This document shows positions 8,355 through 52,430 of a stretch of 64,000 nt of DNA, piece after piece. Every line of letters begins with the position of its first letter. Position 1 is the stretch's first letter. This DNA is from Tremella fuciformis. Taxonomy: Eukaryota > Basidiomycota > Tremellomycetes > Tremellales > Tremellaceae. The stretch is taken from contig CP136490.1 in assembly GCA_032768795.1 (NCBI GenBank), forward strand, positions 1,116,001 to 1,180,000, written 5' to 3'. The notes under the pieces are model-generated. The model saw only the letters and a list, made by a program, of their open reading frames with translations. It was not told the origin of the DNA and searched no databases. The position numbers and the translations under genes were made by a program.

Positions 8355-8597
8355 GATCAGCTTCTGAGATGAGAGAGTGAACGATAGTCAATTTCTTGGA
8401 GAAGGACGAGATTGCACATGTGGGGCATCTGCCGCTTTACCGCCGGATAGCCTTCCCTGGAAGGCGCTACTGCGCGTCGGCATTCCTCTCGTCCTCGTGT
8501 CATCGAAGCCTGCCCTTGATTAGGAGACGTTGAGGCCAGAAGCTCGGGAGGGAAATGAGGTTGACTTCTGGTCGGTTAAAACCGGTTCGGAGTTTTG

Positions 8598-29965: not shown

Positions 29966-30737
29966 TGTCAGGAAACCGACACGGCATCCTGACCACGAGA
30001 CTACCACGAGGCAACTTCCGACGGAAACATCCAAAGGATCCTACGAACCGAAGAACGTGAGTACGATAGAACCGTCACTATTAGTCACGAATAACTACGA
30101 CTTGCTCTTGAAAGCGCTGGAACAACCTGGAGAACGATAGAAGGATACGTCTCAGCCTTCCATCGGCCGAGTTGAGATAGGAACGCACGCAAGGACAAGA
30201 GTCAGGTCCACGATAACGGAGGATAGAGTTATCTCACAGTCAGGGCCACGGGGCGGAGACCGAGGACGATAAGGACGACGACGGGCACGCAAGGAGATTA
30301 GATGCAAGCCAGCGCGGAGAGAAGACGATAGAAGAGAAGAGAGACGACGAGAGAATACTAGAGAGTATTGGGAACGAGTAGAAGCGACTAGGAGAACGAT
30401 GGAACGATCCACGAAGGACGATGCTAGAAGGATCAGAGTGAGAGCGGGCGAGAGTCAGCAGATACTTAAGAAGGAAGATCGCAGAGGAAGTTCCTCAGCG
30501 ATCTAGTTAACTAGTCCTCTAGATAGAACGTCTACTTAGAGAATCGACCGTACCAGTGACGAGAGATAGATAAGTGAAGTGAGTCTTGATCGCTCCTCAC
30601 CCAGCTTGGTTCCACTCTACTCTTGTTCGTTACTATCTGTTACGAATAGTCGTTAATAGTTAGCAGCTTGAACCGATAGATTGATTTAGGTGAGCTTTAG
30701 TTGGATCTAATACAGGTCACCGGGTACAGGTCTGACA
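29966..30737 (+). repeat. Gypsy-A LTR 1 (772 bp)
   Basis: TGTCAGGAAACCG...CAGGTCTGACA. It contains an 86-codon antisense ORF that recurs in every Gypsy-A LTR only because the LTRs are nearly identical. Confidence 0.95.
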
Positions 30738-30786
30738 GATAACTAGATCGCTCATATCCTTCGACAAGCCACCAAATCAAGACGAC

Positions 30787-32031
30787 ATGTCCTCTGCACC
30801 TACGACCGGGTACGGCCTTAGGAACCGAGGCGCGACAGGCAATCCCGACGCAGAGCATGAGCTGATCACTCCTCCCACTGGGACTACCACGGAGGAAGGA
30901 GAAGGAGTCCAAGGTACGCCAGGCGTGTACGAGCCAGGCGCTCAAGAAGACACGATGGAGTCTACCCAGGATGATGGGCTCTCTTCGATCAGGACCCAAC
31001 TCGATAAGATTGGTGAGGCACTGTTGCTTTTGAGTCAGAATCAAAGGATGATGACTGAGCATCGAGTGAACCAATTCGAGACTAATACGAACAAATCGAA
31101 CAACAAGGAACCAAAGGTCAACTCTCCGGACGAGTATCAAGGAGAAAGGAACAAGCTCACCGGATTCCTGACGCAGTGTCAGCTGGTCTTCGACTTACAA
31201 CCAGCCCGATACGCCACCGACTATGCCAAGATCCGATATATGATATCGTTCTTTAGGAAGGCGCCACTGCACTCTATTGAGGCGCACTTAGCTAAGGATG
31301 TCGACGATCAGCCTAGATGGCTTCACGATTACGGGTTGTTCATCAAACACATCAAACGAACCTACGGAGACCCAGATGAAGTTCATACAGCCGAACGGAA
31401 ACTATTAGCGATCCAACAAAAGTCTTCTGTTACGAATTACTTTGCAGAGTTCGAACAGTTATCATCATTGCTGGATTGGCCCGATTCGGTTCTCATCGCC
31501 AAGGCTAGGGAAGGCTTGAAGCCCTCTCTCAAGGACGCCATCGCTACCAAGGTGGAGGAAATCCCTAAGACCTGGAACGACTTTGTCACGGTGATCACGA
31601 GACTTGATGAACGCATGTTCGAGAGGGAACAAGAGAAGAAGAACGAACAAGGACGCCCAGAGAGGCATGAACCGCGACAAATAGAAACGAATAGTGGGCG
31701 AGTGCGACCAGCTGTTACCAGTTTTAACCGCTCATCAGAAACCAGCACAGTCAAGAGCACTCAGCCACCGCGTGCGACCACCCCATGGAATGGCAACCCA
31801 TTCGCAGGCCTAGGTATGCGACCACGCCTGAGTGAGTTCGAGAAGCAGAGACGAAGGGATTCGGGCTTATGCTTTTCTTGCGGACAGAGTGGTCATCAGG
31901 CCAAGGACTGTTCGCAATCGACGCGATCTCAAGGAACGGTGGTCTCTTCCAATGCTACGAACACCTACCAGCGTACCACGACCCCTTCTACGAGCTCGCA
32001 ACAGTCAAAAGTAAGCGCCCCGTCGAATTGA
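30787..32031 (+). CDS. Gypsy-A Gag, first unit, 414 aa
   Basis: Starts MSSAPTTGYGLRNRG. A capsid-like helical region (about residues 120-280, with PDEYQGERNKLTGFLTQCQ and YFAEFEQLSSLLDW) is followed by a basic linker and one CCHC zinc knuckle (CFSCGQSGHQAKDC, about 361-374). It forms the virus-like particle and binds the RNA. The 3' end overlaps the pol frame, which is open from 31836 in the -1 register. Confidence 0.93.
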   Translation: MSSAPTTGYGLRNRGATGNPDAEHELITPPTGTTTEEGEGVQGTPGVYEPGAQEDTMESTQDDGLSSIRTQLDKIGEALLLLSQNQRMMTEHRVNQFETNTNKSNNKEPKVNSPDEYQGERNKLTGFLTQCQLVFDLQPARYATDYAKIRYMISFFRKAPLHSIEAHLAKDVDDQPRWLHDYGLFIKHIKRTYGDPDEVHTAERKLLAIQQKSSVTNYFAEFEQLSSLLDWPDSVLIAKAREGLKPSLKDAIATKVEEIPKTWNDFVTVITRLDERMFEREQEKKNEQGRPERHEPRQIETNSGRVRPAVTSFNRSSETSTVKSTQPPRATTPWNGNPFAGLGMRPRLSEFEKQRRRDSGLCFSCGQSGHQAKDCSQSTRSQGTVVSSNATNTYQRTTTPSTSSQQSKVSAPSN

Positions 32032-35000
32032 GAGGGAGTCGGGGCTCAAACAAACCTCTCACTCTAGGTGCGGCATTCGAGAATTATAACGGAACAGAAT
32101 TTATTGGGGACGAACTACTACCAAAAAGATCAATTGTATGCTACGATAACATGACCGAGAATCTACGATTGAGGGTACTCCTAACTGGCGGCCGGGCAAA
32201 GCTCCAGTGCGGATTCCCTTCCTTATATTGCCGACAAGGATATCTCTCCAACATCCTGTTCGACACTGGAGCCAGCTCCTGCTTTGTCGACTGGAGGTCA
32301 GAGATAGCCCAGACCTTAAACCACACCGTGATTGAACGACCCAAACACGTAGTAATGTTTGATGGACGTACAAGCGCGTTTGGTCTGGTTCACACCTATA
32401 TCGACACGAACATCCAACTTCATCCCGAATATCCCCCAATAGATGTCAAATTGCTTGTGACGGAATTAAATGGGGCCGACATTGTATTGGGATGGCCGTG
32501 GATGGCCGAGAACGGAGTAACCATTGATGCGAGGCATGGATGGGCTGAGTTCCCGTGCACTCCTGTGGTGAGAAAACCACACAGACGAAAAGGGAAGGCT
32601 TACAGGAAGCCCTATGCGTCCGGGACAACCTATCCCAACAACATCGAGATCGCGGAAAGCGGCAATCGATGGAGACCGATCTCAGTAACCCAGGAAGGAT
32701 CTGGCGAGGCTGGAATAAGCAACGATGGCGAAGGAGCAACAGAAACGAATAGCTGCGAAAAAGCGCCAATGGCGGACGATCCTCTTGAAAGGGCTGGGAC
32801 GGAAGACGGGACTCCCGTACTCAGTGACCCTTCTACGAGGGATGATGAGTCAAGCGATGATTCTAGTGGAATCTACGACGACTACAAATACGGCAAGGAT
32901 GAAGCCGGAACCGATCCGGAGGATTGGACGGCAATCGAAGATTTGCAAGATGTGACTATTTGGAACAAATGGGGACGAATAGCACTTGAGGAGAAAGAAT
33001 ACGACCAAACAAGGGTAGAGGTGAACGGAGTAACCGCCAGTGAGAGCGACTCGTACACGACCTTGAACGAGAAGGAACAGTCTTCGGCAAAGGAAAGCAA
33101 GATTCCAGAGGCCTACCAAGGATGGGAAGACTTGTTTGAAGAACCGAGTGGGTCGGCAGCGCTGCCGCCACATCGACCGTACGACCACAGGATAGAACTA
33201 AAGGAGGGAGGTAAGCTGCCTCTTGCTCCTCTCTATCAACTATCTCCGAAAGAAAAGAACGCCTTACACGAATACTTGGAAAAGGAGAAGGCGGAAGGAA
33301 AGATATACCATTCGTTATCACCTTATGGATCGCCGGCGTTCTTTGTCCCGAAGAAAGACGGACGCTTACGACTAGTCGTGGACTATCGCAAGCTAAATGA
33401 AGCCACAGTAAATAGCGCCTATCCGTTACCATTAATCTCGCAGATCTTGGCAGATCTACGTGACGCACGGTTCTACACGAAGCTGGATTTGGCAGGGGCC
33501 TATCAGCTGGTGCGGATGGCTGAAGGACACGAACACCTGACAGCGTTCAGGACTATCTTTGGTATGTTCGAGTCCACTGTGATGAGGGATGGCCTAAAAG
33601 GGGCTCCCGCAACGTTCCAACATTTTATGAACGATATATTTTCGGAACTAATAGGGAAAGGTGTCTACGTATATATCGACGACATTCTCATTTACGCGAA
33701 AACGGTTGAAGAACTTCGAGCTCTTACCAAGACAGTCTTCGATATACTACGACAATGGGAGCTTCGACTAAAAGCAGCAAAATGCGAGTTCGAGAAAGAC
33801 AGCATTACATTCTTAGGACACAGGGTGTCTGCGGAGGGGATAGCAACCGACGAAGGACTAACAGAAACTATTAGGAACTTCCCTATCCCGACTACACAGA
33901 AGGAACTACGATCTGCGGTGGGTCTTTTCAGTTACTACCGAAGATTTGTACCCAACTTCTCGGGAATTGCGAGACCTCTCAACAAGTTGATGTCGAAGAA
34001 AGCAAGGTTTATTTGGAACGAAGAGGCTGACAAGGCATTTCAGTCGCTGAAAGGTGCCCTATCATCACCGCCTATTCTCGGGCACTTCGATCCAGAGCTC
34101 CCGATAGAGGTACACACGGATGCCTCGGACTTCGCCATTGGGTATGTGATCTACCATGTGGATCGCAACACCATGAAGCGAACGGCAATCCATTATGGTT
34201 CAGCAAGGCTCAAACCGAATGAGGAGAACTGGACTGTCACCGAGAAAGAACTATTCGCAATTATTTATTGCTTACAACATCATCGAGCATATTTCGAGGG
34301 CAGCAAATGGCCAATAATCTTTGTTACCGACCATCAGCCCTTGATAGGGTATACCATGCCGAAGCAGGTATCAAACAGGGAGGCCAGATGGGCAGAGATC
34401 CTGGCTCGCTTCGATCTACGAATAGTGTACACCCCAGGTAAGGGCAACGTGGTACCAGACGCCCTGTCGAGACGACCTGACCTGGCAGGGACAAGAGGCG
34501 GTGACAGTTACCAAACGGACTCGAAGGTTCGACAGGTGATCGAGACAATCGATGCTGAGAACGAATTGGACCAAATAGTGACGAACTTAGAAGAGTCAAA
34601 GAAGACAGCTTCAATCGTCGAAGACCAGGAACCCCTTGAAATGTATGGGGTTACAACGACCGAATCACCCAGTACAGCAGACCCGAACACGTATGATTGG
34701 ATCATCGATGGAAGCAGAGTAAGGGAAGGGTATATGAAGGACGAGCAGTGCAGGCAAGTCATCGAAGGGATTGCCGCACAGAAACCGCTCGAAGATATTA
34801 GGAACGAATTGCGACTATCAAGCGATACTAGAGTCGAAATAGACCAACAAGGATTCATCCGCATCGACGGCAAAATCTATATCCCAGACTACGATGATTT
34901 GAGGTTCAAGATCATAAACTCAAGACACGACACTCCGTTGGCAGGACATCCAGGAGTTAAAAGGACTATGAAGGCGGTTCAACGGGACTATTACTGGCCT

Positions 35001-36362
35001 GGGCTCACTGCGCACGTCACCAAGTACGTGTCGAGCTGCACAGCCTGTCTGCGCACCAAGCCTTTCAACCAGAGACCAAGAGGTCAGCTACGAACCTTGG
35101 AAGTTCCACGCCTACCGTTCGAGGACATCACGATGGACTTCATCGAAGAGCTGCCAGTCTCAAACAACTTCAATTCAATACTAGTAGTGGTCGACCGCTT
35201 GACAAAGTACACAGTGCTCATACCCACGGTAACAAAGTTGAACGCACCCGAAATGTGTTCGTTACTATTCGATACGGTTTTCTCCAGATACGGACTGCCG
35301 AGCACGATTGTATCTGACAGGGGAAGTAAATTTGTATCAGACTTCTGGAGGAGTCTAACGGAGCAATTCGACATTCGATTGGCACTCAGTACGGCAAGAA
35401 GGCCGCAGACTGATGGTCAAACCGAGCGACATAACCAGAAAGTAGAGGGATTCATGAGGATCTTCACCAACTTCGACCAGGACAACTGGGCACCGTTGTT
35501 GGCATTCGCCCAGTTCGCCATCAACAACGCCCATCACGATACGATAGGAATGACCCCGTTCTATGCGCTACACGGATTTCATCCTAGATGGGTTCAGGAA
35601 ATATTAGAACCGAATAAAGTCGACAATCAGCAAGCAAGACAACGTGCGAACTCAATGAACGAAGTTCACTCAATCTGCAGGGAGAACTATGTACGAGCAG
35701 GAAAGGAAATGGAGAAGTACTACAACAGGAAGCACCAGCCGCAGGTCGAAATCAAGGACGGAGACTATGTCATGTTGGACCTCGAGGGCCTTAACACGAA
35801 ACGACCCAGCAAGAAACTCGACTACAGGCGAGATGGACCCTTCCAGGTGGAAGAATCAATAGGAACACACGCGAAGAAATTGAAGTTACCAGCGACGCTC
35901 AAGATCCACAATGTTTTTCATGTGTCCAGACTGCATCCTGTGGACGTTATTAGCGTCGAAGACAAACGAATACGACCAAAAGGGCAACCACAAGGACTAC
36001 CAACTATAGTGGAGCCTGATGCTGAATTTGAAGTCGAGAGGATTCTGGACTCAAGAAGAACAAGGAATGGGAAAGTCGAGTACCTAGTGGAGTGGAGAGG
36101 CTACGGGGACGATGAAGTGGGCTGGGAGCCGGAGGTGAACGTCAGAAACGCGGCAGAGGTTGTAAGAACATTCCACGAGCGACACCCCGACAAGCCCATT
36201 GGTCACACATTCGGAGGAATCAAGAAAGATAGGAGCTATTCAAAACGAATAAAGACAAATAGCGACAAAGAAGAGCCTATACGACCTAACAAACGACAAC
36301 GAACTCAAGAGTCAGTCAGGCAAGAGACCGGGCACAGGCATAATCTAAGAAGTCGTCAGTAA
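31869..36362 (+). CDS. Gypsy-A Pol, first unit, intact frame
   Basis: This is the open frame in the -1 register relative to gag. The pol frame is closed by TGA at 31833, so any shift must occur between 31836 and 32031. The ATG at 31869 is only the first in frame. Domains: protease (NILFDTGASSCFVD), reverse transcriptase (LRLVVDYRKLNEAT, YIDDILIYAK), RNase H (EVHTDASDFAIGY), integrase zinc finger (HDTPLAGHPGVKRTM ... CTACLRTK) and core (TMDFIEELP, IVSDRGSKFVSDF, QTDGQTERHNQ). A C-terminal chromodomain follows (ERILDSRRTRNGKVEYLVEW, GYGDDEVGWEPE). RT before integrase plus a chromodomain make this a Ty3/Gypsy chromovirus, a group that targets modified histones. Confidence 0.94.
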   Translation: MLFLRTEWSSGQGLFAIDAISRNGGLFQCYEHLPAYHDPFYELATVKSKRPVELRGSRGSNKPLTLGAAFENYNGTEFIGDELLPKRSIVCYDNMTENLRLRVLLTGGRAKLQCGFPSLYCRQGYLSNILFDTGASSCFVDWRSEIAQTLNHTVIERPKHVVMFDGRTSAFGLVHTYIDTNIQLHPEYPPIDVKLLVTELNGADIVLGWPWMAENGVTIDARHGWAEFPCTPVVRKPHRRKGKAYRKPYASGTTYPNNIEIAESGNRWRPISVTQEGSGEAGISNDGEGATETNSCEKAPMADDPLERAGTEDGTPVLSDPSTRDDESSDDSSGIYDDYKYGKDEAGTDPEDWTAIEDLQDVTIWNKWGRIALEEKEYDQTRVEVNGVTASESDSYTTLNEKEQSSAKESKIPEAYQGWEDLFEEPSGSAALPPHRPYDHRIELKEGGKLPLAPLYQLSPKEKNALHEYLEKEKAEGKIYHSLSPYGSPAFFVPKKDGRLRLVVDYRKLNEATVNSAYPLPLISQILADLRDARFYTKLDLAGAYQLVRMAEGHEHLTAFRTIFGMFESTVMRDGLKGAPATFQHFMNDIFSELIGKGVYVYIDDILIYAKTVEELRALTKTVFDILRQWELRLKAAKCEFEKDSITFLGHRVSAEGIATDEGLTETIRNFPIPTTQKELRSAVGLFSYYRRFVPNFSGIARPLNKLMSKKARFIWNEEADKAFQSLKGALSSPPILGHFDPELPIEVHTDASDFAIGYVIYHVDRNTMKRTAIHYGSARLKPNEENWTVTEKELFAIIYCLQHHRAYFEGSKWPIIFVTDHQPLIGYTMPKQVSNREARWAEILARFDLRIVYTPGKGNVVPDALSRRPDLAGTRGGDSYQTDSKVRQVIETIDAENELDQIVTNLEESKKTASIVEDQEPLEMYGVTTTESPSTADPNTYDWIIDGSRVREGYMKDEQCRQVIEGIAAQKPLEDIRNELRLSSDTRVEIDQQGFIRIDGKIYIPDYDDLRFKIINSRHDTPLAGHPGVKRTMKAVQRDYYWPGLTAHVTKYVSSCTACLRTKPFNQRPRGQLRTLEVPRLPFEDITMDFIEELPVSNNFNSILVVVDRLTKYTVLIPTVTKLNAPEMCSLLFDTVFSRYGLPSTIVSDRGSKFVSDFWRSLTEQFDIRLALSTARRPQTDGQTERHNQKVEGFMRIFTNFDQDNWAPLLAFAQFAINNAHHDTIGMTPFYALHGFHPRWVQEILEPNKVDNQQARQRANSMNEVHSICRENYVRAGKEMEKYYNRKHQPQVEIKDGDYVMLDLEGLNTKRPSKKLDYRRDGPFQVEESIGTHAKKLKLPATLKIHNVFHVSRLHPVDVISVEDKRIRPKGQPQGLPTIVEPDAEFEVERILDSRRTRNGKVEYLVEWRGYGDDEVGWEPEVNVRNAAEVVRTFHERHPDKPIGHTFGGIKKDRSYSKRIKTNSDKEEPIRPNKRQRTQESVRQETGHRHNLRSRQ

Positions 36363-36429: not shown

Positions 36430-37789
36430 CTACATTTCCCTATTCTTCCTCTTCAGCGACTCCAAAGTACGAACAGCTGCCTCGGCTTCACCTATCTGGG
36501 AAATGCGCGAATGTATGTCCGCAAAAGTGCCCGCAGGGATAGTGACTGTCCCGGAGGTAGACGAATTCAATCGAGCGCGTTCGAGTCCCTTCAGACCTTC
36601 CTTGAGGGAAAGGAAATGCTCTCGTAAAACCTGAAGATAAGGCGCGGGGTCTGAGAAAGAACATGCCGAAGTGCACACAGCACAGCGAATTGAGCCTGGC
36701 TTGACTCGACAAACAAGCTTGGCCTTGAGACAGCCTCGGCACGGTGGAACCGAGACCGGATATTTTTGCTGTTCGGCGAACTTCTCATTTGAAAGTGGGC
36801 GCGTGCCGCGAGCAGCACGCTTGGGCGGCGCCTCACCGGCTTTAAGTTCGGACGGCCGTTTGTAGGGCGGGGGGACATCGACAGTGTGGGACTATTCGTT
36901 ACTATTAACCCCAAACAGTACGAGATCACTTGCCTTCGGAACAAACTTAGACGGGGTCTGACTCGCGTGGGCGGCTGACATGAACGTGGCATAGTCCTAC
37001 AATTAGTTACTATTCGTAACGAATAGAAACTACTCACAATGGCCAGGATCTCGTCGGGATCAACTGATTCCGGAGTGGACGGAATGGGCTTGGTCTCGTC
37101 GAGCTCGCGAATAGGAGTATCGACAATGGCGCGTTGTTTCCCTTTCCCCTTGGAACCCTTCTTGCGAGGGGGTTCGGACTCTGTCTCCGACGAGTCCAGC
37201 TCGTCTTCGATGGCGGGGGGATCGGAGGAAAGAAGGAAGGCTGCTATTAGTTGCGGATAAAATCGAATAGGAACGACTTACTAGGGTCTTCATCGACGTT
37301 ACCCTCGGGATCAGTAGTCTCGGATCCATCTGGAAACTATTAGGAACGAATACACACGAATACAAGAAAACAAACACACCTTCGGATTTGTTGTCAGCCT
37401 CCGGGGCGGGCGACGAAGTCTTGTCTTGGGCGGTGTTCAGAGGGGCAGTGGGGGCACGTTCGAGAGCAGCGGGAGCTGAGACGGTGTCGGCGGGGGCGAG
37501 AGGCTGGGTGACGCCTTCTCCATCCGAGAGAGTGGGGAGGGCAGGTGTCTCATCTGCTATTAGTGACAAATACGAGCGAGTAGTAGTAACTCACTCGGGT
37601 CCGCATCCATCTGGGTGAGATCTTGTCGGGTTTCGTTTGACGGAGCCAACTCGTCCAACTCAGGCAGGGGCGTCATAGCGGGCGAGGTGGACTTGCGCGT
37701 GAAGCGTCCCTTATGCTCTTGGTCAGTAATAGCCACGAACATGATCGAGTACTCACACGTCGTTGGGCGGATGCGCGAGAGCGGGCCAT
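36430..37789 (-). CDS. Antisense accessory gene of Gypsy-A, first unit: 367-aa Cys-cluster protein, 7 exons
   Basis: Exons, complement of 37757..37789, 37595..37715, 37380..37553, 37282..37329, 37038..37240, 36934..36996 and 36430..36891. The six introns are 41, 41, 50, 41, 41 and 42 nt. All have GT-AG ends except the last (GC-AG), and every phase fits, giving 368 codons with stop. Most have a CTAAT-type branch site just before the acceptor. The protein starts MARSRASAQRR and has a long acidic Ser/Thr/Pro-rich part. Near residues 250-280 it carries a cysteine cluster, CRGCLKAKLVC then CAVCTSAC (spacing C-x2-C-x6-C-x8-C-x2-C-x3-C), related to but not matching the Zn2Cys6 pattern. A helical C-terminus follows. 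I infer a zinc-binding, possibly DNA-binding protein; the function is unknown. Confidence 0.8.
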
Positions 37790-37933
37790 AGGGGTACGCC
37801 AAAGGTCAAGAAAAGTAGATGTACGAACGAACAACGAGAGGGCGCAGTCACGCCCTTATGTATCCTGCGGGCGTCTATCGGCAAAACGGCGTTACGAGTA
37901 AAAACGAGTATGAGGCAGTCGCAAGAGCGAGCG

Positions 37934-37946
37934 GTTGCTAGGCAAC
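37934..37946. promoter_or_regulatory. X-box-like palindrome GTTGCTAGGCAAC, site 1
   Basis: A 13-bp near-perfect inverted repeat matching the RFX-family X-box form (GTNRCC/RGYAAC half sites). It lies 145 bp upstream of the antisense gene's start codon. Confidence 0.6.
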
Positions 37947-37985
37947 TAGGGTGACAACTCGCAGATGCTCGACATGTAGAAAGTC

Positions 37986-37998
37986 GTTGCTAGGCAAC
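37986..37998. promoter_or_regulatory. X-box-like palindrome GTTGCTAGGCAAC, site 2
   Basis: An exact second copy of the 13-mer, 52 bp from the first and about 100 bp before the middle LTR. Spacing of about five helical turns suggests paired binding. Confidence 0.6.
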
Positions 37999-38099
37999 GG
38001 GACGATAAGCGACAACCGATAGGCGGTATCAGGAACAAATAAAAATCAGTCGCGACTAATCTTATCATGAAGGGACTCATGATGTAAAGGAGGGAGGAG

Positions 38100-38871
38100 T
38101 GTCAGGAAACCGACACGGCATCCTGACCACGAGACTACCACGAGGCAACTTCCGACGGAAACATCCAAAGGATCCTACGAACCGAAGAACGTGAGTACGA
38201 TAGAACCGTCACTATTAGTCACGAATAACTACGACTTGCTCTTGAAAGCGCTGGAACAACCTGGAGAACGATAGAAGGATACGTCTCAGCCTTCCATCGG
38301 CCGAGTTGAGATAGGAACGCACGCAAGGACAAGAGTCAGGTCCACGATAACGGAGGATAGAGTTATCTCACAGTCAGGGCCACGGGGCGGAGACCGAGGA
38401 CGATAAGGACGACGACGGGCACGCAAGGAGATTAGATGCAAGCCAGCGCGGAGAGAAGACGATAGAAGAGAAGAGAGACGACGAGAGAATACTAGAGAGT
38501 ATTGGGAACGAGTAGAAGCGACTAGGAGAACGATGGAACGATCCACGAAGGACGATGCTAGAAGGATCAGAGTGAGAGCGGGCGAGAGTCAGCAGATACT
38601 TAAGAAGGAAGATCGCAGAGGAAGTTCCTCAGCGATCTAGTTAACTAGTCCTCTAGATAGAACGTCTACTTAGAGAATCGACCGTACCAGTGACGAGAGA
38701 TAGATAAGTGAAGTGAGTCTTGATCGCTCCTCACCCAGCTTGGTTCCACTCTACTCTTGTTCGTTACTATCTGTTACGAATAGTCGTTAATAGTTAGCAG
38801 CTTGAACCGATAGATTGATTTAGGTGAGCTTTAGTTGGATCTAATACAGGTCACCGGGTACAGGTCTGACA
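38100..38871 (+). repeat. Gypsy-A LTR 2, shared middle LTR (772 bp)
   Basis: It serves as 3' LTR of the first unit (polypurine tract AAAGGAGGGAGGAG just before it) and 5' LTR of the second. Confidence 0.95.
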
Positions 38872-40165: not shown

Positions 40166-42594
40166 GAGGGAGTCGGGGCTCAAACAAACCTCTCACTCTA
40201 GGTGCGGCATTCGAGAATTATAACGGAACAGAATTTATTGGGGACGAACTACTACCAAAAAGATCAATTGTATGCTACGATAACATGACCGAGAATCTAC
40301 GATTGAGGGTACTCCTAACTGGCGGCCGGGCAAAGCTCCAGTGCGGATTCCCTTCCTTATATTGCCGACAAGGATATCTCTCCAACATCCTGTTCGACAC
40401 TGGAGCCAGCTCCTGCTTTGTCGACTGGAGGTCAGAGATAGCCCAGACCTTAAACCACACCGTGATTGAACGACCCAAACACGTAGTAATGTTTGATGGA
40501 CGTACAAGCGCGTTTGGTCTGGTTCACACCTATATCGACACGAACATCCAACTTCATCCCGAATATCCCCCAATAGATGTCAAATTGCTTGTGACGGAAT
40601 TAAATGGGGCCGACATTGTATTGGGATGGCCGTGGATGGCCGAGAACGGAGTAACCATTGATGCGAGGCATGGATGGGCTGAGTTCCCGTGCACTCCTGT
40701 GGTGAGAAAACCACACAGACGAAAAGGGAAGGCTTACAGGAAGCCCTATGCGTCCGGGACAACCTATCCCAACAACATCGAGATCGCGGAAAGCGGCAAT
40801 CGATGGAGACCGATCTCAGTAACCCAGGAAGGATCTGGCGAGGCTGGAATAAGCAACGATGGCGAAGGAGCAACAGAAACGAATAGCTGCGAAAAAGCGC
40901 CAATGGCGGACGATCCTCTTGAAAGGGCTGGGACGGAAGACGGGACTCCCGTACTCAGTGACCCTTCTACGAGGGATGATGAGTCAAGCGATGATTCTAG
41001 TGGAATCTACGACGACTACAAATACGGCAAGGATGAAGCCGGAACCGATCCGGAGGATTGGACGGCAATCGAAGATTTGCAAGATGTGACTATTTGGAAC
41101 AAATGGGGACGAATAGCACTTGAGGAGAAAGAATACGACCAAACAAGGGTAGAGGTGAACGGAGTAACCGCCAGTGAGAGCGACTCGTACACGACCTTGA
41201 ACGAGAAGGAACAGTCTTCGGCAAAGGAAAGCAAGATTCCAGAGGCCTACCAAGGATGGGAAGACTTGTTTGAAGAACCGAGTGGGTCGGCAGCGCTGCC
41301 GCCACATCGACCGTACGACCACAGGATAGAACTAAAGGAGGGAGGTAAGCTGCCTCTTGCTCCTCTCTATCAACTATCTCCGAAAGAAAAGAACGCCTTA
41401 CACGAATACTTGGAAAAGGAGAAGGCGGAAGGAAAGATATACCATTCGTTATCACCTTATGGATCGCCGGCGTTCTTTGTCCCGAAGAAAGACGGACGCT
41501 TACGACTAGTCGTGGACTATCGCAAGCTAAATGAAGCCACAGTAAATAGCGCCTATCCGTTACCATTAATCTCGCAGATCTTGGCAGATCTACGTGACGC
41601 ACGGTTCTACACGAAGCTGGATTTGGCAGGGGCCTATCAGCTGGTGCGGATGGCTGAAGGACACGAACACCTGACAGCGTTCAGGACTATCTTTGGTATG
41701 TTCGAGTCCACTGTGATGAGGGATGGCCTAAAAGGGGCTCCCGCAACGTTCCAACATTTTATGAACGATATATTTTCGGAACTAATAGGGAAAGGTGTCT
41801 ACGTATATATCGACGACATTCTCATTTACGCGAAAACGGTTGAAGAACTTCGAGCTCTTACCAAGACAGTCTTCGATATACTACGACAATGGGAGCTTCG
41901 ACTAAAAGCAGCAAAATGCGAGTTCGAGAAAGACAGCATTACATTCTTAGGACACAGGGTGTCTGCGGAGGGGATAGCAACCGACGAAGGACTAACAGAA
42001 ACTATTAGGAACTTCCCTATCCCGACTACACAGAAGGAACTACGATCTGCGGTGGGTCTTTTCAGTTACTACCGAAGATTTGTACCCAACTTCTCGGGAA
42101 TTGCGAGACCTCTCAACAAGTTGATGTCGAAGAAAGCAAGGTTTATTTGGAACGAAGAGGCTGACAAGGCATTTCAGTCGCTGAAAGGTGCCCTATCATC
42201 ACCGCCTATTCTCGGGCACTTCGATCCAGAGCTCCCGATAGAGGTACACACGGATGCCTCGGACTTCGCCATTGGGTATGTGATCTACCATGTGGATCGC
42301 AACACCATGAAGCGAACGGCAATCCATTATGGTTCAGCAAGGCTCAAACCGAATGAGGAGAACTGGACTGTCACCGAGAAAGAACTATTCGCAATTATTT
42401 ATTGCTTACAACATCATCGAGCATATTTCGAGGGCAGCAAATGGCCAATAATCTTTGTTGCCGACCATCAGCCCTTGATAGGGTATACCATGCCGAAGCA
42501 GGTATCAAACAGGGAGGCCAGATGGGCAGAGATCCTGGCTCGCTTCGATCTACGAATAGTGTACACCCCAGGTAAGGGCAACGTGGTACCAGAC
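40003..42594 (+). pseudogene. Gypsy-A Pol, second unit, 5' part cut by Gypsy-B
   Basis: Protease, reverse transcriptase and RNase H are intact and match the first unit (one Asp/Asn and one Thr/Ala change seen). The frame is broken at GKGNVVPD, at the end of the RNase H/connection region, where Gypsy-B is inserted. Read-through enters the Gypsy-B LTR and stops at 42777. Confidence 0.92.
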
Positions 42595-43156
42595 TGTCAT
42601 GACCGACCTCATCTCACACACAAGTCACCACTTTTTACGCCATTCGCCTACAAAACACAGTACTTTTTCCACCGAACTGCTCAAACATTACCTCTTCTGG
42701 TACATCGCCGATTTAAGTCAGTACTTTTGTCGGTGATCTTCCCTGAAGTCAATACTTTTATCGGTGATCTTTCCTGAAGTCAATACTTTTTCCGGTGATC
42801 CTACTCGGCGGCCTTCAGCCACCTTTCCACTCCCAGTAATTATAGACAGATCTGCAGCGAGGAGAATCGCTTGCACTCGAGAAATATCGGCAGTAGGAAA
42901 ACTTTTCTCATGGAATGGGTGGCAAAACGGGTGGCAAATCCCTTCGGCGTACATAGCCCTCTTGTCTATATAAGGAGGCCACTTTCCGGCCAAGATAGTT
43001 TCTTCAGCAATGGATCTCTTGTGTCCCGTCACAAAAGTCACACAGCTGGTCTGAACCCAGCACTCTTGTCCTCGATCCCCCAGTCCCCTTGCTTTACGAG
43101 CCAGAGACTAGACCCCCTTGTGCCCTTTACCTTGGGCTACCCCTTCGAGCGTGACA
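42595..43156 (+). repeat. Gypsy-B 5' LTR (562 bp)
   Basis: TGTCATGACCG...GAGCGTGACA. It contains a TATATAA box at about 42967 and the triple GTCARTACTTTT repeat, probably enhancer-like. Confidence 0.95.
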
Positions 43157-43329
43157 GTATCCATTGCCAACCACCCTAGTCCTTGCTCGTGATCCTTTAC
43201 TTTGGTTCACCTTGTTCCCAGCTTGGCTTTACTTTGCCTTGTCTTACCCTAGCCTAAGCCATTTCGCTTTCATCCCTTCCTCAGACTCATCCTCAGAACT
43301 TTGCTGACTTACAGGTCACCTCTTGCACC

Positions 43330-44361
43330 ATGGAATCCGAGAATACGACTGCCCAGCAGCTCACTCCTGAGCAAGCTCTCCAAGCCCAACATGACATGAT
43401 TCTTCAACTTCAAGCTCAGATCAATGCTCTTCAAGTCAACTCCGCTACCGGCAGGCCTGAGCATACCAAGGAACCAAAGATCTCTCATCCACCGCCTTTC
43501 AGTGGCCGTAAGGATCAGACTCTGGAATTCTTGGCTAAGTGCAATATGGTCTTTGCTGTTCAACCTCGCACCTACTCTACGGACGTCACTCGCATCGCTT
43601 TTGCAACCAATCTACTTAAGGAGGAAGCCTATCGATGGGTCTTACCTTACCTTGGCATGGACGCAGAGGATCAACCAACCTGGCTCCATGCCTGGGACGA
43701 CTTCCAAATTGAATTCAAGAAGTATTTTGGCGATGCCAACATGGCAGAAACATCTCGCTTCAAGCTCCGCAACCTCCGACAAACCGGTTCAGCAAGTCTC
43801 TATGCCACAGAGTTCCAGCGCCACGCAGCATATGTCCACTGGAACAACGAGACCAAGAAGCAAAACTTCTTTGATGGACTCAAGGATGACGTCAAGGATC
43901 GACTTCTTGCTCCTGGCAAATTCAAGGATTATGAAGCTTTGGTCACTGCAGCAATCGAGTATGATGACCTTCTCTACCAACGACGTCGCACCAACAACAA
44001 TCCTCGACCATCAACACGCTTCACTCCCAGCGGCACTATGGCAACTCGTTTTAGCCCTTCCATCCGGCCCACCAATACCTTGGCACCTCGGACGACCACC
44101 TCGACTACTTTCACTCCAACCCCAATGGAAATTGATGCAACTCAAGCCAGAACCTTTGGACCGCTCACTCCAGCTGAGCGTGAACGACGCATCAAGGAGA
44201 ACCTCTGCATGTACTGCGGCAAGCCTGGTCACAAGGCTAGGGAATGCCGTACAGGCCAGCGCAACCAGCAGCAGAAAGCCCAGGTCAGTGCCACCACAAC
44301 TGCATCCGACAATGTCATTGCCTCCGACAATAAGGCAAAAAACATGCAGCCCCAGGCCTAG
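43330..44361 (+). CDS. Gypsy-B Gag, 343 aa
   Basis: Starts MESENTTAQQLTPEQALQA. A coiled segment is followed by a Ty3-type capsid region (FSGRKDQTLEFLAKCNMVF, WLHAWDDFQIEFKKYFGD), a Thr-rich linker and one CCHC knuckle (CMYCGKPGHKAREC, about residues 295-308). The stop TAG is at 44359. The last codons include the shift site that leads to Pol. Confidence 0.94.
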   Translation: MESENTTAQQLTPEQALQAQHDMILQLQAQINALQVNSATGRPEHTKEPKISHPPPFSGRKDQTLEFLAKCNMVFAVQPRTYSTDVTRIAFATNLLKEEAYRWVLPYLGMDAEDQPTWLHAWDDFQIEFKKYFGDANMAETSRFKLRNLRQTGSASLYATEFQRHAAYVHWNNETKKQNFFDGLKDDVKDRLLAPGKFKDYEALVTAAIEYDDLLYQRRRTNNNPRPSTRFTPSGTMATRFSPSIRPTNTLAPRTTTSTTFTPTPMEIDATQARTFGPLTPAERERRIKENLCMYCGKPGHKARECRTGQRNQQQKAQVSATTTASDNVIASDNKAKNMQPQA

Positions 44362-44383
44362 GCGTGTCCCCACCTCTGGGGCT
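44337..44383 (+). promoter_or_regulatory. Programmed -1 ribosomal frameshift signal (A AAA AAC plus hairpin)
   Basis: The heptamer A AAA AAC (44337-44343) sits in the gag frame as GCA AAA AAC. After a 4-nt spacer, AGCCCCAG (44348-44355) pairs perfectly with CTGGGGCT (44376-44383). The -1 frame is closed by TAA at 44331 and gag ends at 44361, so the shift must fall in a window of under 30 nt that contains this heptamer. After a -1 slip, reading enters the long pol frame. Confidence 0.85.
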
Positions 44384-47300
44384 CTCAACAGGGCACAACA
44401 CGGTACAGCAAAAACGTCTACATATCACGGCAACATCGCTATCGTCAACAATACTACCATCAACACCTAAGGACCACCTCTGCCTTCCCATCGTCATCAA
44501 ACATGGGAACTCAAGCTACGACACTCTTGCAATGATTGACTCTGGTGCCACTGCCAGTTTCATCAACTCAAGCTTCCTCGACACGACCAACATCCCTCGT
44601 ATCTCCAAGGTCACGCCCCTGGAGGTTTCAGTCATTGATGGGCGACCTATTGCTTCTGGCGCCATCACACACCACACAGCACCTATGTCACTGTGCCTTC
44701 ATGGTCATGAAGAGACAATCTCTCTTGACATCACATCACTCGGCACCTATCCAGTCATCCTTGGCCTTCCATGGCTCTCTCGACACAACCCAAGCATTGA
44801 TTGGTCCCGTCAGACCATCAAGTTCTCCTCTCCGCTCTGCCTGGAGCAGTGCAGCAGGTATGACAAACCTGTAGAGGCAGATTCTGCTCCTCAGTCACAT
44901 CGAATTACAAGAAAGCGCGCCGGTAACCTGCCTAGCAAGAAAGCTTCAGGTACGCCATCACAAGATCAACAAACCTCAAAATACGCTCCGCCACACATAG
45001 CCTTGGTCAGCGCGGCAGCCTTCAGAATTGCCATGAGAAACGCACAAATCTATGGCATCACCACGACAACTCAAGTTTCAGGCCTCATCGATCCATCACC
45101 AGCACAGGACGATGACGACACCTCGGATCTCAACTTCCAGCAACTCAAGGAGATCATTCCCTCAGAATTCCATGACCACCTTGAAGTATTCAACAAATCC
45201 AACTCCGACAAGCTACCAGACCACGGACCTTACGATCATGCCATAACACTTGAGGGCAATGCCCAACCCAAGTTTGGCCCAATTTACAGTCTGTCAGAGG
45301 TCGAGCTCAAAGCCTTGGACGAATACCTCAAAGAGAACCTCAAGAAAGGATTTATACGACCAAGTTCAAGCCCCGCTGGTTCACCCATCCTCTTTGTCAA
45401 GAAACCAGACGGATCCCTCAGATTATGTGTCGACTACCGGCAACTCAATAGCATTACTCGGAAAAACCGATATCCGCTCCCGCTAATTCAAGAATCTCTC
45501 GATCGCCTTCAAGGAGCCTCATGGTTCAGCAAGATCGACTTACGTGCCGCATACAACCTTGTCCGCATTGCCAAAGGCGATGAATGGAAGACGGCATTCC
45601 GCACCCGCTATGGACACTACGAATACCTTGTGATGCCTTTTGGGCTTACAAATGCGCCCGCATCATTCCAGAACCTCATCAACGATGTCCTCAGAGACTT
45701 TTTGGATGTCTTTGTCATTGTCTACCTGGACGACATCCTCATCTTCAGCAAATCAAAGGACGAGCACATCACGCATGTCAAGCAAGTCTTGGAACGACTA
45801 CAAGAACACCACCTTTGGGCAAAAGCAGAAAAGTGCACCTTCTTCAAGCATGAGGTTGATTTCCTTGGTTACCTTGTCTCTGACAAAGGAATCCGAATGG
45901 ACCCTCACAAAGTTGAAGCAGTCACAAACTGGCCACCACCAAAATCGGTACACGATGTTCAAGTCTTCCTTGGCTTTGCAAATTTCTATCGACGCTTCAT
46001 CAAAGCATACTCCAAGGTCACGTCACCACTCACACACCTCCTACGCAAGGGAGTCAACTTTGTGTGGGGAGACAAGCAACAATCCGCCTTTGATACACTC
46101 AAGCACTCTTTCACCAGTGCTCCGATACTTCAACACTTTCAACCTGGAAAGCCAATCATCATGGAGACAGACGCTTCAGACTTTGCTATTGCAGGTGTCC
46201 TCTCACATTCCGACATAGATGGGAAGCAACTTCACCCAATTGCCTACTACTCTCGAAAACTCCAACCGGCCGAACTCAACTATGAGATCTACGACAAAGA
46301 AATGCTTGCAATTGTGGAAGCATTCAAACACTGGCGGCCATACCTAGAAGGAGCAAAAGAAATCACAGTCTATACCGACCACAAGAACCTCGAATATTTC
46401 ACGACCTCCAAGGTGCTCAACAGACGACAAGCTCGTTGGGCGGAACTCTTAGCCAACTTCGATTTCAAGATACACTACCGACCTGGAGAAAAGATGGGCA
46501 AACCAGATGCCCTGACCAGGAGGTCAGACCTTCAAGGAGGGAGTAGAGCTGCCGAAGCACCTCCACACACACTCCTCAAACCCGGACAATTCATCATTGG
46601 TGCTTTACACAGCAACTCTGATAACTCGACAACTTCCGACATCATGGCCAGAATAGAGCAACTCCAGCCTGAGGATCCGATCCTACAAGAGCTACTGCCT
46701 AATCTGCGCAATACAAATCGACCAATACCCATGGAATTACAAGACAAATTGAAAGATTTCACCCTCGACAAGAACATTATCCGATATCAACAAAGGGTCT
46801 ACGTCCCAAACAATCAGGATCTCAAAATCGACCTACTGCACCAGTGTCACAACACCCCTACCGCAGGACACTTTGGACAACAGAAGACATTCCAACTTCT
46901 AGCTCGACACTACTACTTTCCTGGCATGCGACAATTTACCAATACCTATGTGGACGGATGTCACACATGCGCACGGAATAAAATACCTCGACACAAACCC
47001 TACGGACCTCTTCAACCGCTTCCGGTACCCAGCAAACCTTGGCACTCAATTTCCATGGACGCTATTGTCAAACTCCCGGTATCAAAAGGTTATGACTCAA
47101 TCATGGTTTTTGTTGACCGCTTCACCAAACAAGCCCACTTTGTCCCATTCAAAGAAGATGGCTTTGACGCGCCCAACTTAGCAACAATGTTCCGACAAAA
47201 CATCTGGAGACTTCATGGACTTCCACACGACATTGTCTCAGACCGCGGATCAATCTTCAACTCGCAATTCTGGAGATCATTTGTCAAAGGCCTTGGAATC

Positions 47301-48212
47301 ACACCCAACTTCTCAACAGCCTTTCACCCACAATCCGATGGACAAACAGAACGAGTCAATCAAGTTCTGGAACATTACCTTCGATCATTCTGCGACTACG
47401 ACCAAGCCAACTGGTCCTCACTTTTGGACTTGGCAGAATACAGCTACAACAACTCAGTCCACTCGTCAACCAAGTTCACTCCTTTTGAAGCCAACTATGG
47501 TTATCATCCCAACGATCCAACAACTCCGCCAACATCAACTGTCCCTGCAGCACAGACACACCTTGAAAAATTACGCTCCTTGCATGAACAGCTCTCCAAC
47601 AATATCAAGACCGCCCAAGAGCATTACACCAAGTTCTACAACCGAAAAATCAAGGAGATCAATGCCAAAGACCAACCACTCTTCAAAGTAGGAGATCAAG
47701 TCTTCCTGAATCGAAGGAACATACAAACACTTCGACCCTCGCTCAAGCTCGACCAAAGGATGCTCGGACCGTTCAAGATCATTGAGGCTACTTCCTCTCC
47801 GCTCGCATTCAGATTGGAGCTTCCGCCATCCATGAACATACACCCAGTCTTCCACGTCAACCTTCTCGAACCGATGCGTCACGGACACCCTCAGCAACCA
47901 CAAGATCCACCACCACGCATTGAAGTCAATGGACAAGAAGAATACATCATCGACAGAATCCTCGACTCTCGAATCAGCTCAGACAATGGTTACGATTACC
48001 TTGTCAGCTGGAAAGACTACTCAAGCGCCCACAACTCATGGGAACCATGGGAAAACGTCCACGACACCACCGCCTATCAAAAATTCCATCGACAACATGC
48101 TCAGGACCCAAACCACCATTTCCCTTCCAGTTCAACAAACTCAAAGCGCACTACAGCACTCGACAAAAGATCTAAGTCCAGATCAAACCGGCTCAGAGGA
48201 CTTCGCCCTTAG
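44343..48212 (+). CDS. Gypsy-B Pol, about 1289 aa, expressed by -1 frameshift
   Basis: The start given is the first codon after the slip. Protease (AMIDSGATASFINSSF), reverse transcriptase (LRLCVDYRQLNSIT, VYLDDILIFSK), RNase H (METDASDFAIAGVLS, YDKEMLAIVEA), integrase zinc finger (HNTPTAGHFGQQKTF ... CHTCARNK), core (SMDAIVKLPVS, IVSDRGSIFNSQFW, QSDGQTERVNQ) and a chromodomain (DRILDSRISSDNGYDYLVSW, SWEPWENV). A Ty3/Gypsy chromovirus of a family different from Gypsy-A. All catalytic residues expected are present. Stop at 48210, about 15 nt before the 3' LTR. Confidence 0.94.
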   Translation, partial: HAAPGLGVSPPLGLSTGHNTVQQKRLHITATSLSSTILPSTPKDHLCLPIVIKHGNSSYDTLAMIDSGATASFINSSFLDTTNIPRISKVTPLEVSVIDGRPIASGAITHHTAPMSLCLHGHEETISLDITSLGTYPVILGLPWLSRHNPSIDWSRQTIKFSSPLCLEQCSRYDKPVEADSAPQSHRITRKRAGNLPSKKASGTPSQDQQTSKYAPPHIALVSAAAFRIAMRNAQIYGITTTTQVSGLIDPSPAQDDDDTSDLNFQQLKEIIPSEFHDHLEVFNKSNSDKLPDHGPYDHAITLEGNAQPKFGPIYSLSEVELKALDEYLKENLKKGFIRPSSSPAGSPILFVKKPDGSLRLCVDYRQLNSITRKNRYPLPLIQESLDRLQGASWFSKIDLRAAYNLVRIAKGDEWKTAFRTRYGHYEYLVMPFGLTNAPASFQNLINDVLRDFLDVFVIVYLDDILIFSKSKDEHITHVKQVLERLQEHHLWAKAEKCTFFKHEVDFLGYLVSDKGIRMDPHKVEAVTNWPPPKSVHDVQVFLGFANFYRRFIKAYSKVTSPLTHLLRKGVNFVWGDKQQSAFDTLKHSFTSAPILQHFQPGKPIIMETDASDFAIAGVLSHSDIDGKQLHPIAYYSRKLQPAELNYEIYDKEMLAIVEAFKHWRPYLEGAKEITVYTDHKNLEYFTTSKVLNRRQARWAELLANFDFKIHYRPGEKMGKPDALTRRSDLQGGSRAAEAPPHTLLKPGQFIIGALHSNSDNSTTSDIMARIEQLQPEDPILQELLPNLRNTNRPIPMELQDKLKDFTLDKNIIRYQQRVYVPNNQDLKIDLLHQCHNTPTAGHFGQQKTFQLLARHYYFPGMRQFTNTYVDGCHTCARNKIPRHKPYGPLQPLPVPSKPWHSISMDAIVKLPVSKGYDSIMVFVDRFTKQAHFVPFKEDGFDAPNLATMFRQNIWRLHGLPHDIVSDRGSIFNSQFWRSFVKGLGITPNFSTAFHPQSDGQTERVNQVLEHYLRSFCDYDQANWSSLLDLAEYSYNNSVHSSTKFTPFEANYGYHPNDPTTPPTSTVPAAQTHLEKLRSLHEQLSNNIKTAQEHYTKFYNRKIKEINAKDQPLFKVGDQVFLNRRNIQTLRPSLKLDQRMLGPFKIIEATSSPLAFRLELPPSMNIHPVFHVNLLEPMRHGHPQQPQDPPPRIEVNGQEEYIIDRILDSRISSDNGYDYLVSWKDYSSAHNSWEPWENVHDTTAYQKFHRQHAQDPNHHFPSSSTNSKRTTALDKRSKSRSNRLRGLRP

Positions 48213-48224
48213 AGGGGGAGCTCC

Positions 48225-48786
48225 TGTCATGACCGACCTCATCTCACACACAAGTCACCACTTTTTACGCCATTCGCCTACAAAACACAGTACTTTTTCC
48301 ACCGAACTGCTCAAACATTACCTCTTCTGGTACATCGCCGATTTAAGTCAGTACTTTTGTCGGTGATCTTCCCTGAAGTCAATACTTTTATCGGTGATCT
48401 TTCCTGAAGTCAATACTTTTTCCGGTGATCCTACTCGGCGGCCTTCAGCCACCTTTCCACTCCCAGTAATTATAGACAGATCTGCAGCGAGGAGAATCGC
48501 TTGCACTCGAGAAATATCGGCAGTAGGAAAACTTTTCTCATGGAATGGGTGGCAAAACGGGTGGCAAATCCCTTCGGCGTACATAGCCCTCTTGTCTATA
48601 TAAGGAGGCCACTTTCCGGCCAAGATAGTTTCTTCAGCAATGGATCTCTTGTGTCCCGTCACAAAAGTCACACAGCTGGTCTGAACCCAGCACTCTTGTC
48701 CTCGATCCCCCAGTCCCCTTGCTTTACGAGCCAGAGACTAGACCCCCTTGTGCCCTTTACCTTGGGCTACCCCTTCGAGCGTGACA
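48225..48786 (+). repeat. Gypsy-B 3' LTR (562 bp)
   Basis: Reads as identical to the 5' LTR at 42595. Confidence 0.95.
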
Positions 48787-50760: not shown

Positions 50761-52120
50761 CTACATTTCCCTATTCTTCCTCTTCAGCGACTCCAAAGTA
50801 CGAACAGCTGCCTCGGCTTCACCTATCTGGGAAATGCGCGAATGTATGTCCGCAAAAGTGCCCGCAGGGATAGTGACTGTCCCGGAGGTAGACGAATTCA
50901 ATCGAGCGCGTTCGAGTCCCTTCAGACCTTCCTTGAGGGAAAGGAAATGCTCTCGTAAAACCTGAAGATAAGGCGCGGGGTCTGAGAAAGAACATGCCGA
51001 AGTGCACACAGCACAGCGAATTGAGCCTGGCTTGACTCGACAAACAAGCTTGGCCTTGAGACAGCCTCGGCACGGTGGAACCGAGACCGGATATTTTTGC
51101 TGTTCGGCGAACTTCTCATTTGAAAGTGGGCGCGTGCCGCGAGCAGCACGCTTGGGCGGCGCCTCACCGGCTTTAAGTTCGGACGGCCGTTTGTAGGGCG
51201 GGGGGACATCGACAGTGTGGGACTATTCGTTACTATTAACCCCAAACAGTACGAGATCACTTGCCTTCGGAACAAACTTAGACGGGGTCTGACTCGCGTG
51301 GGCGGCTGACATGAACGTGGCATAGTCCTACAATTAGTTACTATTCGTAACGAATAGAAACTACTCACAATGGCCAGGATCTCGTCGGGATCAACTGATT
51401 CCGGAGTGGACGGAATGGGCTTGGTCTCGTCGAGCTCGCGAATAGGAGTATCGACAATGGCGCGTTGTTTCCCTTTCCCCTTGGAACCCTTCTTGCGAGG
51501 GGGTTCGGACTCTGTCTCCGACGAGTCCAGCTCGTCTTCGATGGCGGGGGGATCGGAGGAAAGAAGGAAGGCTGCTATTAGTTGCGGATAAAATCGAATA
51601 GGAACGACTTACTAGGGTCTTCATCGACGTTACCCTCGGGATCAGTAGTCTCGGATCCATCTGGAAACTATTAGGAACGAATACACACGAATACAAGAAA
51701 ACAAACACACCTTCGGATTTGTTGTCAGCCTCCGGGGCGGGCGACGAAGTCTTGTCTTGGGCGGTGTTCAGAGGGGCAGTGGGGGCACGTTCGAGAGCAG
51801 CGGGAGCTGAGACGGTGTCGGCGGGGGCGAGAGGCTGGGTGACGCCTTCTCCATCCGAGAGAGTGGGGAGGGCAGGTGTCTCATCTGCTATTAGTGACAA
51901 ATACGAGCGAGTAGTAGTAACTCACTCGGGTCCGCATCCATCTGGGTGAGATCTTGTCGGGTTTCGTTTGACGGAGCCAACTCGTCCAACTCAGGCAGGG
52001 GCGTCATAGCGGGCGAGGTGGACTTGCGCGTGAAGCGTCCCTTATGCTCTTGGTCAGTAATAGCCACGAACATGATCGAGTACTCACACGTCGTTGGGCG
52101 GATGCGCGAGAGCGGGCCAT
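50761..52120 (-). CDS. Antisense accessory gene of Gypsy-A, second unit, 367 aa
   Basis: Exact counterpart of 36430-37789, offset by 14331 bp; exons, introns and the Cys cluster are all kept. The two X-box-like palindromes recur at 52265-52277 and 52317-52329. The sense Pol of this unit is broken, but the antisense gene and its upstream sites are whole. Confidence 0.8.
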
Positions 52121-52430
52121 AGGGGTACGCCAAAGGTCAAGAAAAGTAGATGTACGAACGAACAACGAGAGGGCGCAGTCACGCCCTTATGTATCCTGCG
52201 GGCGTCTATCGGCAAAACGGCGTTACGAGTAAAAACGAGTATGAGGCAGTCGCAAGAGCGAGCGGTTGCTAGGCAACTAGGGTGACAACTCGCAGATGCT
52301 CGACATGTAGAAAGTCGTTGCTAGGCAACGGGACGATAAGCGACAACCGATAGGCGGTATCAGGAACAAATAAAAATCAGTCGCGACTAATCTTATCATG
52401 AAGGGACTCATGATGTAAAGGAGGGAGGAG

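Follow-up and report, generated by a model that had tools for sequence, protein, structure and literature searches.

An antisense gene with predicted introns and a six-cysteine cluster in chromodomain Gypsy elements of Tremella fuciformis

Introduction

How can an LTR retroelement keep a gene with six introns, and does such a gene serve the element that carries it? This question is raised by a Gypsy element in a 64 kb stretch of Tremella fuciformis DNA (the window, 54% GC), in which a sequence-only reading had placed a seven-exon accessory gene on the strand opposite to gag and pol. Most descriptions of antisense accessory genes in LTR elements come from plants, and no function has been assigned to them (PMC7264820). 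The plant aORF-3R genes named in the accounts cited here comprise maize Grande gene23, rice RIRE2, Silene/Retand TRP28 and PvRetro13 (PMC7264820, PMC11963269). Grande gene23 is nuclear and has its own promoter (PMC7264820), TRP28 is predicted to bind DNA, and HTLV-1 HBZ and other retroviral antisense genes have been named as a comparison for antisense genes of retroelements (PMC11963269). Among fungi, the Boty element of Botrytis cinerea carries the antisense gene brtn, which is credited to Zhao et al. 2011 (PMC7264820, PMC8365987), and for a Boty-like element both a CHROMO domain and brtn-106 are described (PMC4227169). The statement of the sequence-only reading that no fungal chromovirus with a spliced antisense gene was known to it is therefore not supported as it stands, since Boty/brtn is a fungal chromovirus with an antisense gene according to these accounts. 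A search of open-access titles and abstract beginnings retrieved no multi-intron antisense gene in a fungal LTR element. Neither a six-cysteine (Cys6) family extending over several Gypsy families nor a shared antisense promoter motif was found in these records.

Results and discussion

Carrier element and structure of the antisense gene

The window contains one Gypsy element twice in tandem with a common middle LTR (Table 1). The three LTRs are 772 bp each and neighbouring ones differ by 0 and 1 nt. Pol of unit 1 matched the Pfam models RVT_1 (3e-32), RT_RNaseH (2e-25), rve (2.2e-10) and Chromo (6.8e-14), and it therefore combines the reverse transcriptase (RT), RNase H, integrase and C-terminal chromodomain of a chromovirus. 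When the minus strand was spliced between 36430 and 37789, seven exons were joined to a protein of exactly 367 amino acids, in unit 1 and in unit 2 alike. The introns are 41, 41, 50, 41, 41 and 42 nt long with phases 0, 1, 1, 1, 0 and 0, and these values are the same in both units. Placement, orientation, chromovirus type, exon number, intron lengths and consistency of the phases thus all agree with what had been read from the letters, and so does the cysteine cluster, which was recovered as CRGCLKAKLVCRVKPGSIRCAVCTSAC at 36741 on the minus strand in exon 7. A six-frame scan of the 64 kb window detected the pattern of this cluster only there and at its twin at 51072.

Two details had to be corrected. 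The splice sites had been called proper, and this holds for five GT-AG introns; intron 6 is of the GC-AG type (GCAAGT...TAG) and the acceptor of intron 1 is GAG in the window, with TAG at the equivalent place in a more divergent copy (L029). The coding part occupies 36430–37789 and not the whole span to 38099 that had been assigned to the gene; the stretch 37790–38099 consists of the antisense 5′ region and the polypurine tract.

Table 1. Features of the Gypsy element and its antisense gene in the window
Feature	Positions	Strand	Remarks
5′ LTR, unit 1	29966–30737	+	772 bp, TG...CA; within its bounds identical to the LTR at 38100
gag ORF	30736–32031	+	431 aa; Retrotrans_gag, zf-CCHC
pol ORF	31836–36362	+	1508 aa; RT, RNase H, integrase, chromodomain
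Antisense exon 7	36430–36891	−	Cys6 cluster (from 36741) and stop codon; dN/dS 0.082 against L029
Intron 6	36892–36933	−	42 nt, GC-AG, phase 0
Antisense exon 6	36934–36996	−	
Intron 5	36997–37037	−	41 nt, phase 0
Antisense exon 5	37038–37240	−	
Intron 4	37241–37281	−	41 nt, phase 1
Antisense exon 4	37282–37329	−	
Intron 3	37330–37379	−	50 nt, phase 1
Antisense exon 3	37380–37553	−	
Intron 2	37554–37594	−	41 nt, phase 1
Antisense exon 2	37595–37715	−	
Intron 1	37716–37756	−	41 nt, phase 0, GAG acceptor; weakest junction of the model
Antisense exon 1	37757–37789	−	putative ATG; no alignment in L029
Palindrome	37934–37946		GTTGCTAGGCAAC (GTTGCCTAGCAAC on the minus strand), X-box-like, upstream of the antisense ATG
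Second palindrome copy	37986–37998		52 nt further upstream
Polypurine tract	38086–38099	+	adjoins the 3′ LTR (by eye)
LTR common to units 1 and 2	38100–38871	+	
Antisense gene, unit 2	50761–52120	−	same seven exons, 367 aa
Palindrome pair, unit 2	52265–52329		52265–52277 and 52317–52329
3′ LTR, unit 2	52431–53202	+	

Selection on the antisense exons

The two units of the window differ by 1 nt across the 3,643 nt that precede the 3′ LTR and must be regarded as one observation rather than two, so that independent evidence has to come from other copies. We searched the genome (28.1 Mb, 11 contigs) and obtained 22 matches to the last two antisense exons. After two partial copies (L022, L030) had been dropped, 20 loci were aligned with the window, two of which (L010, L011) are its own units and thus not independent; 18 others remained. 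All six introns have kept their ends and lengths in each of the 17 other copies that are about 98–100% identical, and 14 of these 17 are intact (ATG present, no internal stop, no exon indel). The three broken copies involve one internal stop each (L017, L027) and a 535 nt insertion in exon 3 (L026).

More divergent is copy L029, which is about 85% identical to the units of the window. Over exons 2–7 its differences are distributed as 49/28/108 over codon positions 1/2/3 and a dN/dS ratio of 0.203 was calculated. When the same substitutions were reshuffled 2,000 times, the ratio averaged 0.83 with a minimum of 0.48, and only 0.8% of the reshuffled sequences were free of a stop. For exon 7 the ratio given in Table 1 goes along with 16/6/59 differences at the three codon positions, and it comes close to the 0.098 obtained for the pol tail read in its sense frame; for exons 2–6 we obtained 0.38. 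One indel of +3 and one of −6 are the only ones in exons 2–7, and introns 2–6 have exactly the same length as in the window. Exon 1 and the donor of intron 1 could not be aligned in this copy, and therefore the gene start is the weakest part of the model. The five copies that are about 98% identical gave ratios of 0.23–0.37 against the window, with 8–15 nonsynonymous and 11–14 synonymous changes each. Comparison of dN/dS across copies, which the sequence-only reading had proposed as a check, therefore indicates purifying selection.

A six-frame test of exon 7 yielded a low ratio, apart from the antisense frame, only for the sense frame in register with it (0.20). With 3 stops in the units of the window and 6 in L029, this frame is excluded as the target of selection. 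Since the region has no sense frame that stays open throughout, a hidden sense ORF was rejected. A chance ORF is ruled out by the codon-position and dN/dS tests against reshuffled substitutions together with the six-frame test. Taken together, these data show that the antisense exons are under selection at the protein level. The feature is almost certainly a real coding gene, and the preserved intron ends and lengths make it very likely that the gene is spliced.

Distribution among Gypsy families

When the 100 best RT matches were sorted by their identity to the element of the window, which represents family A, four further families emerged: B (about 51%), C (50%), D (50%) and E (45%). One copy of each family was read past the RT. 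In B, C and D an antisense Cys6 open frame was present just beyond the chromodomain, and its cysteine spacing (CX2CX6C, then X8–11, then CX2CX3–5C) is akin to that of A. The B frame retrieved the C frame from the genome with an E value of around 1e-14. Weaker matches led to a fifth family, G (L052–L055), in which a Cys6 frame and a chromodomain frame again face each other on opposite strands. Versions of the antisense gene are present in no fewer than five Gypsy families of this genome. A further divergent Cys6 motif (CHGCQQDDRPC...CYVCGAATGC, L056:460, minus strand), here kept apart from the named families, was a weak match to the B frame.

By coordinates, and with the 100 best RT matches as the reference, 21 of 22 matches to the antisense gene in A, 24 of 31 in B, 19 of 23 in C and 10 of 15 in D have an RT on the other strand within 12 kb and lie downstream of it. 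Of the remaining 17 A–D matches, 7 have an RT from this set close by in a different arrangement, and 10 have none from it. None of the 21 family E RTs within this set was paired with an antisense match, the queries not being specific for E. Past pol, one family E copy (L042) has a sense ORF of 448 amino acids (2878–4224).

Two introns are common to families B and C, where they agree in position and phase (one following DRxFFG, phase 1; the other following WA[LR], phase 0). An intact and divergent B copy (L047) gave a dN/dS ratio of 0.21. Ratios of 0.25–0.32 were obtained for three further B copies despite their damage, which consists of 1–2 nt indels and an internal stop in L043 and L044 and of a 1 nt insertion in L046; a fourth one (L045, 0.95) looks decayed. 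The divergent D copies (L048–L050) have 1 nt indels and ratios of 0.45–0.89 and look decayed as well, so that dN/dS is uninformative for this family. Since broken or decayed copies exist in A, B and D, not every copy of the element needs the antisense gene.

The C-terminal parts of pol of B, C, D and G are 39–40% identical to that of A, and across the five families identity ranges from 39 to 68%. In an unrooted tree of this region, which did not include G and in which A and E were flagged as long branches, A, B, C and D stood apart from E and from a nested element of the window (family F, see below) with a support of 100/98. This grouping of the families bearing the gene suggests that the antisense gene marks a clade, and the gene seems to be older than the divergence of families that are 40–68% identical in the C-terminal part of pol.

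Properties of the encoded protein

The protein consists of a low-complexity N-terminal part and a cluster of the type CX2CX6CX8–11CX2CX3–5C. Across 14 members from five families, five of the cysteines were present in all sequences and the sixth in at least 90%, and this near-invariance argues for metal binding. With its two CX2C-based halves and six cysteines the cluster resembles the fungal Zn(II)2Cys6 domain (Gal4-type, PF00172), for which the spacing is CX2CX6CX5–12CX2CX6–8C. However, the spacing is CX2CX6CX8CX2CX3C in A and the last interval remains at 3–5 across the five families, as against 6–8 in the Gal4 type. In addition, PF00172 was not matched at E values up to 10 by the 367-aa protein or up to 1 by the 14 members, and none of 123 places matching PF00172 in the genome (150 of 199 candidates scored) fell on an antisense gene by coordinates. 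We therefore rejected a Gal4-type domain. Pfam searches gave nothing convincing, neither a zinc cluster nor TRP28.

AlphaFold2 modeling on the 14-row alignment gave a mean pLDDT of 61, with poor values around the cysteines and the highest confidence for a C-terminal helix pair. A Foldseek search with this model gave no match at E ≤ 0.001, and the model was therefore not used; the PDB sequence search was also empty. Relatives of the protein were found neither in viral-contig scans nor in protein databases; the fungal coverage of these collections was not controlled, so that this result does not imply absence. The cysteine cluster is consistent with a zinc-binding nuclear regulator, an assignment which we make tentatively and which is about as open to doubt as to belief.

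The upstream palindrome

Two copies of a 13-nt palindrome, GTTGCTAGGCAAC, precede the antisense ATG of unit 1 by about 145 and 197 bp. This 13-mer occurs 78 times in the genome, compared with 2 occurrences of a reversed control. Of the 78 sites, 67 are located upstream of an antisense gene of family A or B, and such sites accompany 21 of 23 A pieces and 25 of 31 B matches. A variant present in D, GTTGCCCAGCAAC, has 13 sites (control 1), 10 of which sit 1.0–1.5 kb upstream of D matches by coordinates. In the D copy examined, GTTACCCAGCAAC stands about 93 nt before a possible ATG. The looser pattern GTTGCNNNGCAAC was counted at 114 places, against 20 for its control. The palindrome occurs in either orientation, A versus B. 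The sequences around it are unrelated between A, B and D, and thus the short motif itself is what these families share. Two palindrome pairs at C4:89919 and C4:279332 have the 52 nt spacing of the A type and no listed antisense gene; they are probably element fragments.

The consensus of the RFX X-box is GTNRCC-N0–3-RGYAAC, and the motif fits it as GTTGCC-T-AGCAAC in A and B and as GTTACC/GTTGCC-C-AGCAAC in D. The RNR small subunit is a typical fungal RFX target. The genome contains one match to the RFX DNA-binding domain (PF02257, E 2.6e-20), and fungal RFX factors act in the DNA-damage response and the cell cycle (PMC2873420, PMC6315099). No X-box was detected upstream of the antisense gene in three copies each of C and G. 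The same result was obtained for the host genes of the RNR small subunit (L063–L065), over 1.5 kb on either side of the matched exons. A literature search joining RFX with antisense promoters of fungal LTR elements had no result. The antisense gene probably has its own antisense promoter. Given the negative outcome for the host RNR genes and for the upstream stretches of C and G, control of this promoter by RFX stays a lead that we consider unlikely to be borne out. An X-box-like sequence, GTCACCTGGTAAC, was also seen in the family E copy mentioned above (L042:3206); from shuffled sequences, 1.2 X-boxes are expected per 64 kb.

Alternatively, the palindrome might not be a promoter element but might fold in the sense RNA, with a stem of 5 bp and a loop of 3 nt, into a hairpin that serves, for instance, packaging or 3′-end processing. 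The stretch between the antisense ATG and the 3′ LTR is indeed also 3′ noncoding sequence of the sense RNA, and both readings allow for the two orientations in A and B. The stem is short, however, and families C and G would also need packaging although the 3 + 3 copies lack the palindrome upstream, and we consider this function rather unlikely. A form with one mismatch, TTTGCCTAGCAAC, was found in a C copy with a nested insertion (L040:5799).

Comparison with known antisense genes

By position, orientation and persistence the antisense gene belongs to the aORF-3R class. In family A, the family in which the LTRs were delimited, pol ends at 36362, the antisense gene occupies 36430–37789 and the LTR starts at 38100. 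It runs opposite to gag-pol and is present in most copies, as judged from the 21 of 22 A matches paired with an RT within 12 kb. The plant genes likewise run antisense in the stretch that separates pol from the 3′ LTR, occur in all or most copies and have no assigned function in the accounts cited above. They differ in belonging to another kingdom and, for Retand, to a non-chromovirus lineage; moreover, the fungal gene has six introns and a Cys6 cluster and did not match the TRP28 model of Pfam. Boty/brtn agrees in that a fungal chromodomain Gypsy element carries an additional antisense gene. Compared by description only, it differs in that the cited accounts, as far as consulted, mention no introns, Cys6 cluster or shared upstream palindrome for brtn. 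HTLV-1 HBZ, also compared by description only, is likewise an antisense protein gene of a retroelement. The HBZ mRNA is spliced. HBZ differs in encoding a bZIP protein and in having its start at the 3′ LTR.

Possible function of the antisense gene

The explanation which we favor, and which we consider reasonably probable, is a spliced accessory gene placed antisense between pol and the 3′ LTR, a member of a family that is old in one element clade and that encodes a zinc-binding nuclear regulator under its own promoter. Its starting point is the protein-level selection on the antisense exons. The splice sites seen in the sequence would define introns only on the antisense RNA, and the sense genomic RNA would then carry them unspliced through each round of retrotransposition. 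We infer that the introns escape removal in this way, and the argument is sound. The promoter would lie in the roughly 310 bp between the antisense ATG and the 3′ LTR, where one or two palindromes fitting the X-box might place transcription under a host RFX-type factor. The protein would bind zinc and work in the nucleus on nucleic acid or chromatin, possibly regulating how the element itself is expressed or integrated. A more far-reaching version, in which clade-wide multi-exon antisense regulators with a new six-cysteine module have a dedicated promoter tied to the RFX stress or cell-cycle circuit of the host, seems rather unlikely to us. If it were true, a second intron-bearing transcription unit, invisible to sense splicing, would sense the DNA-damage or replication state and time the mobility of the element.

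The main rival to such a regulator is a counter-defence factor, a protein that blocks host silencing (RNAi or heterochromatin). Retention in five families of one genome and recent activity (LTRs with 0–1 differences) would fit a need of active elements, and the faster evolution of the N-terminal exons (2–6) compared with exon 7 would fit an arms race at one end of the protein. On the other hand, no likeness of the protein to any Pfam family or solved structure was found, and no version was detected for the 21 family E RTs among the 100 best matches (queries not E-specific). We consider this function improbable.

Recent capture of a host gene, inserted antisense together with its introns, is far less probable still. 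Intact introns would fit, since they can be kept only through capture in antisense orientation, but the strong matches to the A, B and D queries are element families and no host gene or other non-element relative was recognized in the genome (several weak matches unread). Moreover, with versions in five families whose pol C-terminal parts are 39–68% identical, any capture must be old. Finally, selection for the antisense RNA as such (regulation via double-stranded RNA, with the frame as a by-product) is largely refuted and the least credible option, for although antisense noncoding transcripts of LTR elements are known (PMC7264820), the codon-position pattern of exon 7 is not expected from an RNA-level function, exon indels are restricted to 3 and 6 nt and the lowest ratio belongs to the open antisense frame.

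With a regulator of the element as the preferred reading, the locus is of interest in several respects. One genome offers five families with related antisense genes at different distances and intact splice sites, purifying selection is measurable in A and B, and the upstream palindrome is common to A, B and D; the question of whether antisense genes serve the element thus becomes directly testable. For other fungi, a Cys6 exon, the palindrome and the strand opposite to a chromodomain provide a signature for annotation. The locus further illustrates how a gene with several introns can be retained by a retroelement.

Other features of the window

The two units (29966–53202) lie head to tail, and the flanks of the outer LTRs do not resemble a target-site duplication, as expected after LTR–LTR recombination. 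Pol of unit 2 is split by the nested family F Gypsy element (42594–48523; gag 43258–44361, pol 44334–48212). Pol of this element is directly followed by its LTR repeat, so that an antisense gene would have no space between them; the repeat occurs a third time at 8597–8896. An inverted family A LTR lies at 54131–54908, 0.9 kb downstream of unit 2. The segment 13484–29827 contains adjacent Copia-like ORFs of 1452 and 1702 amino acids (by eye) with several LTR-like direct repeats. A host gene at 57542–59527 on the minus strand encodes Aconitase and Aconitase_C domains, and its product presumably resembles isopropylmalate dehydratase.
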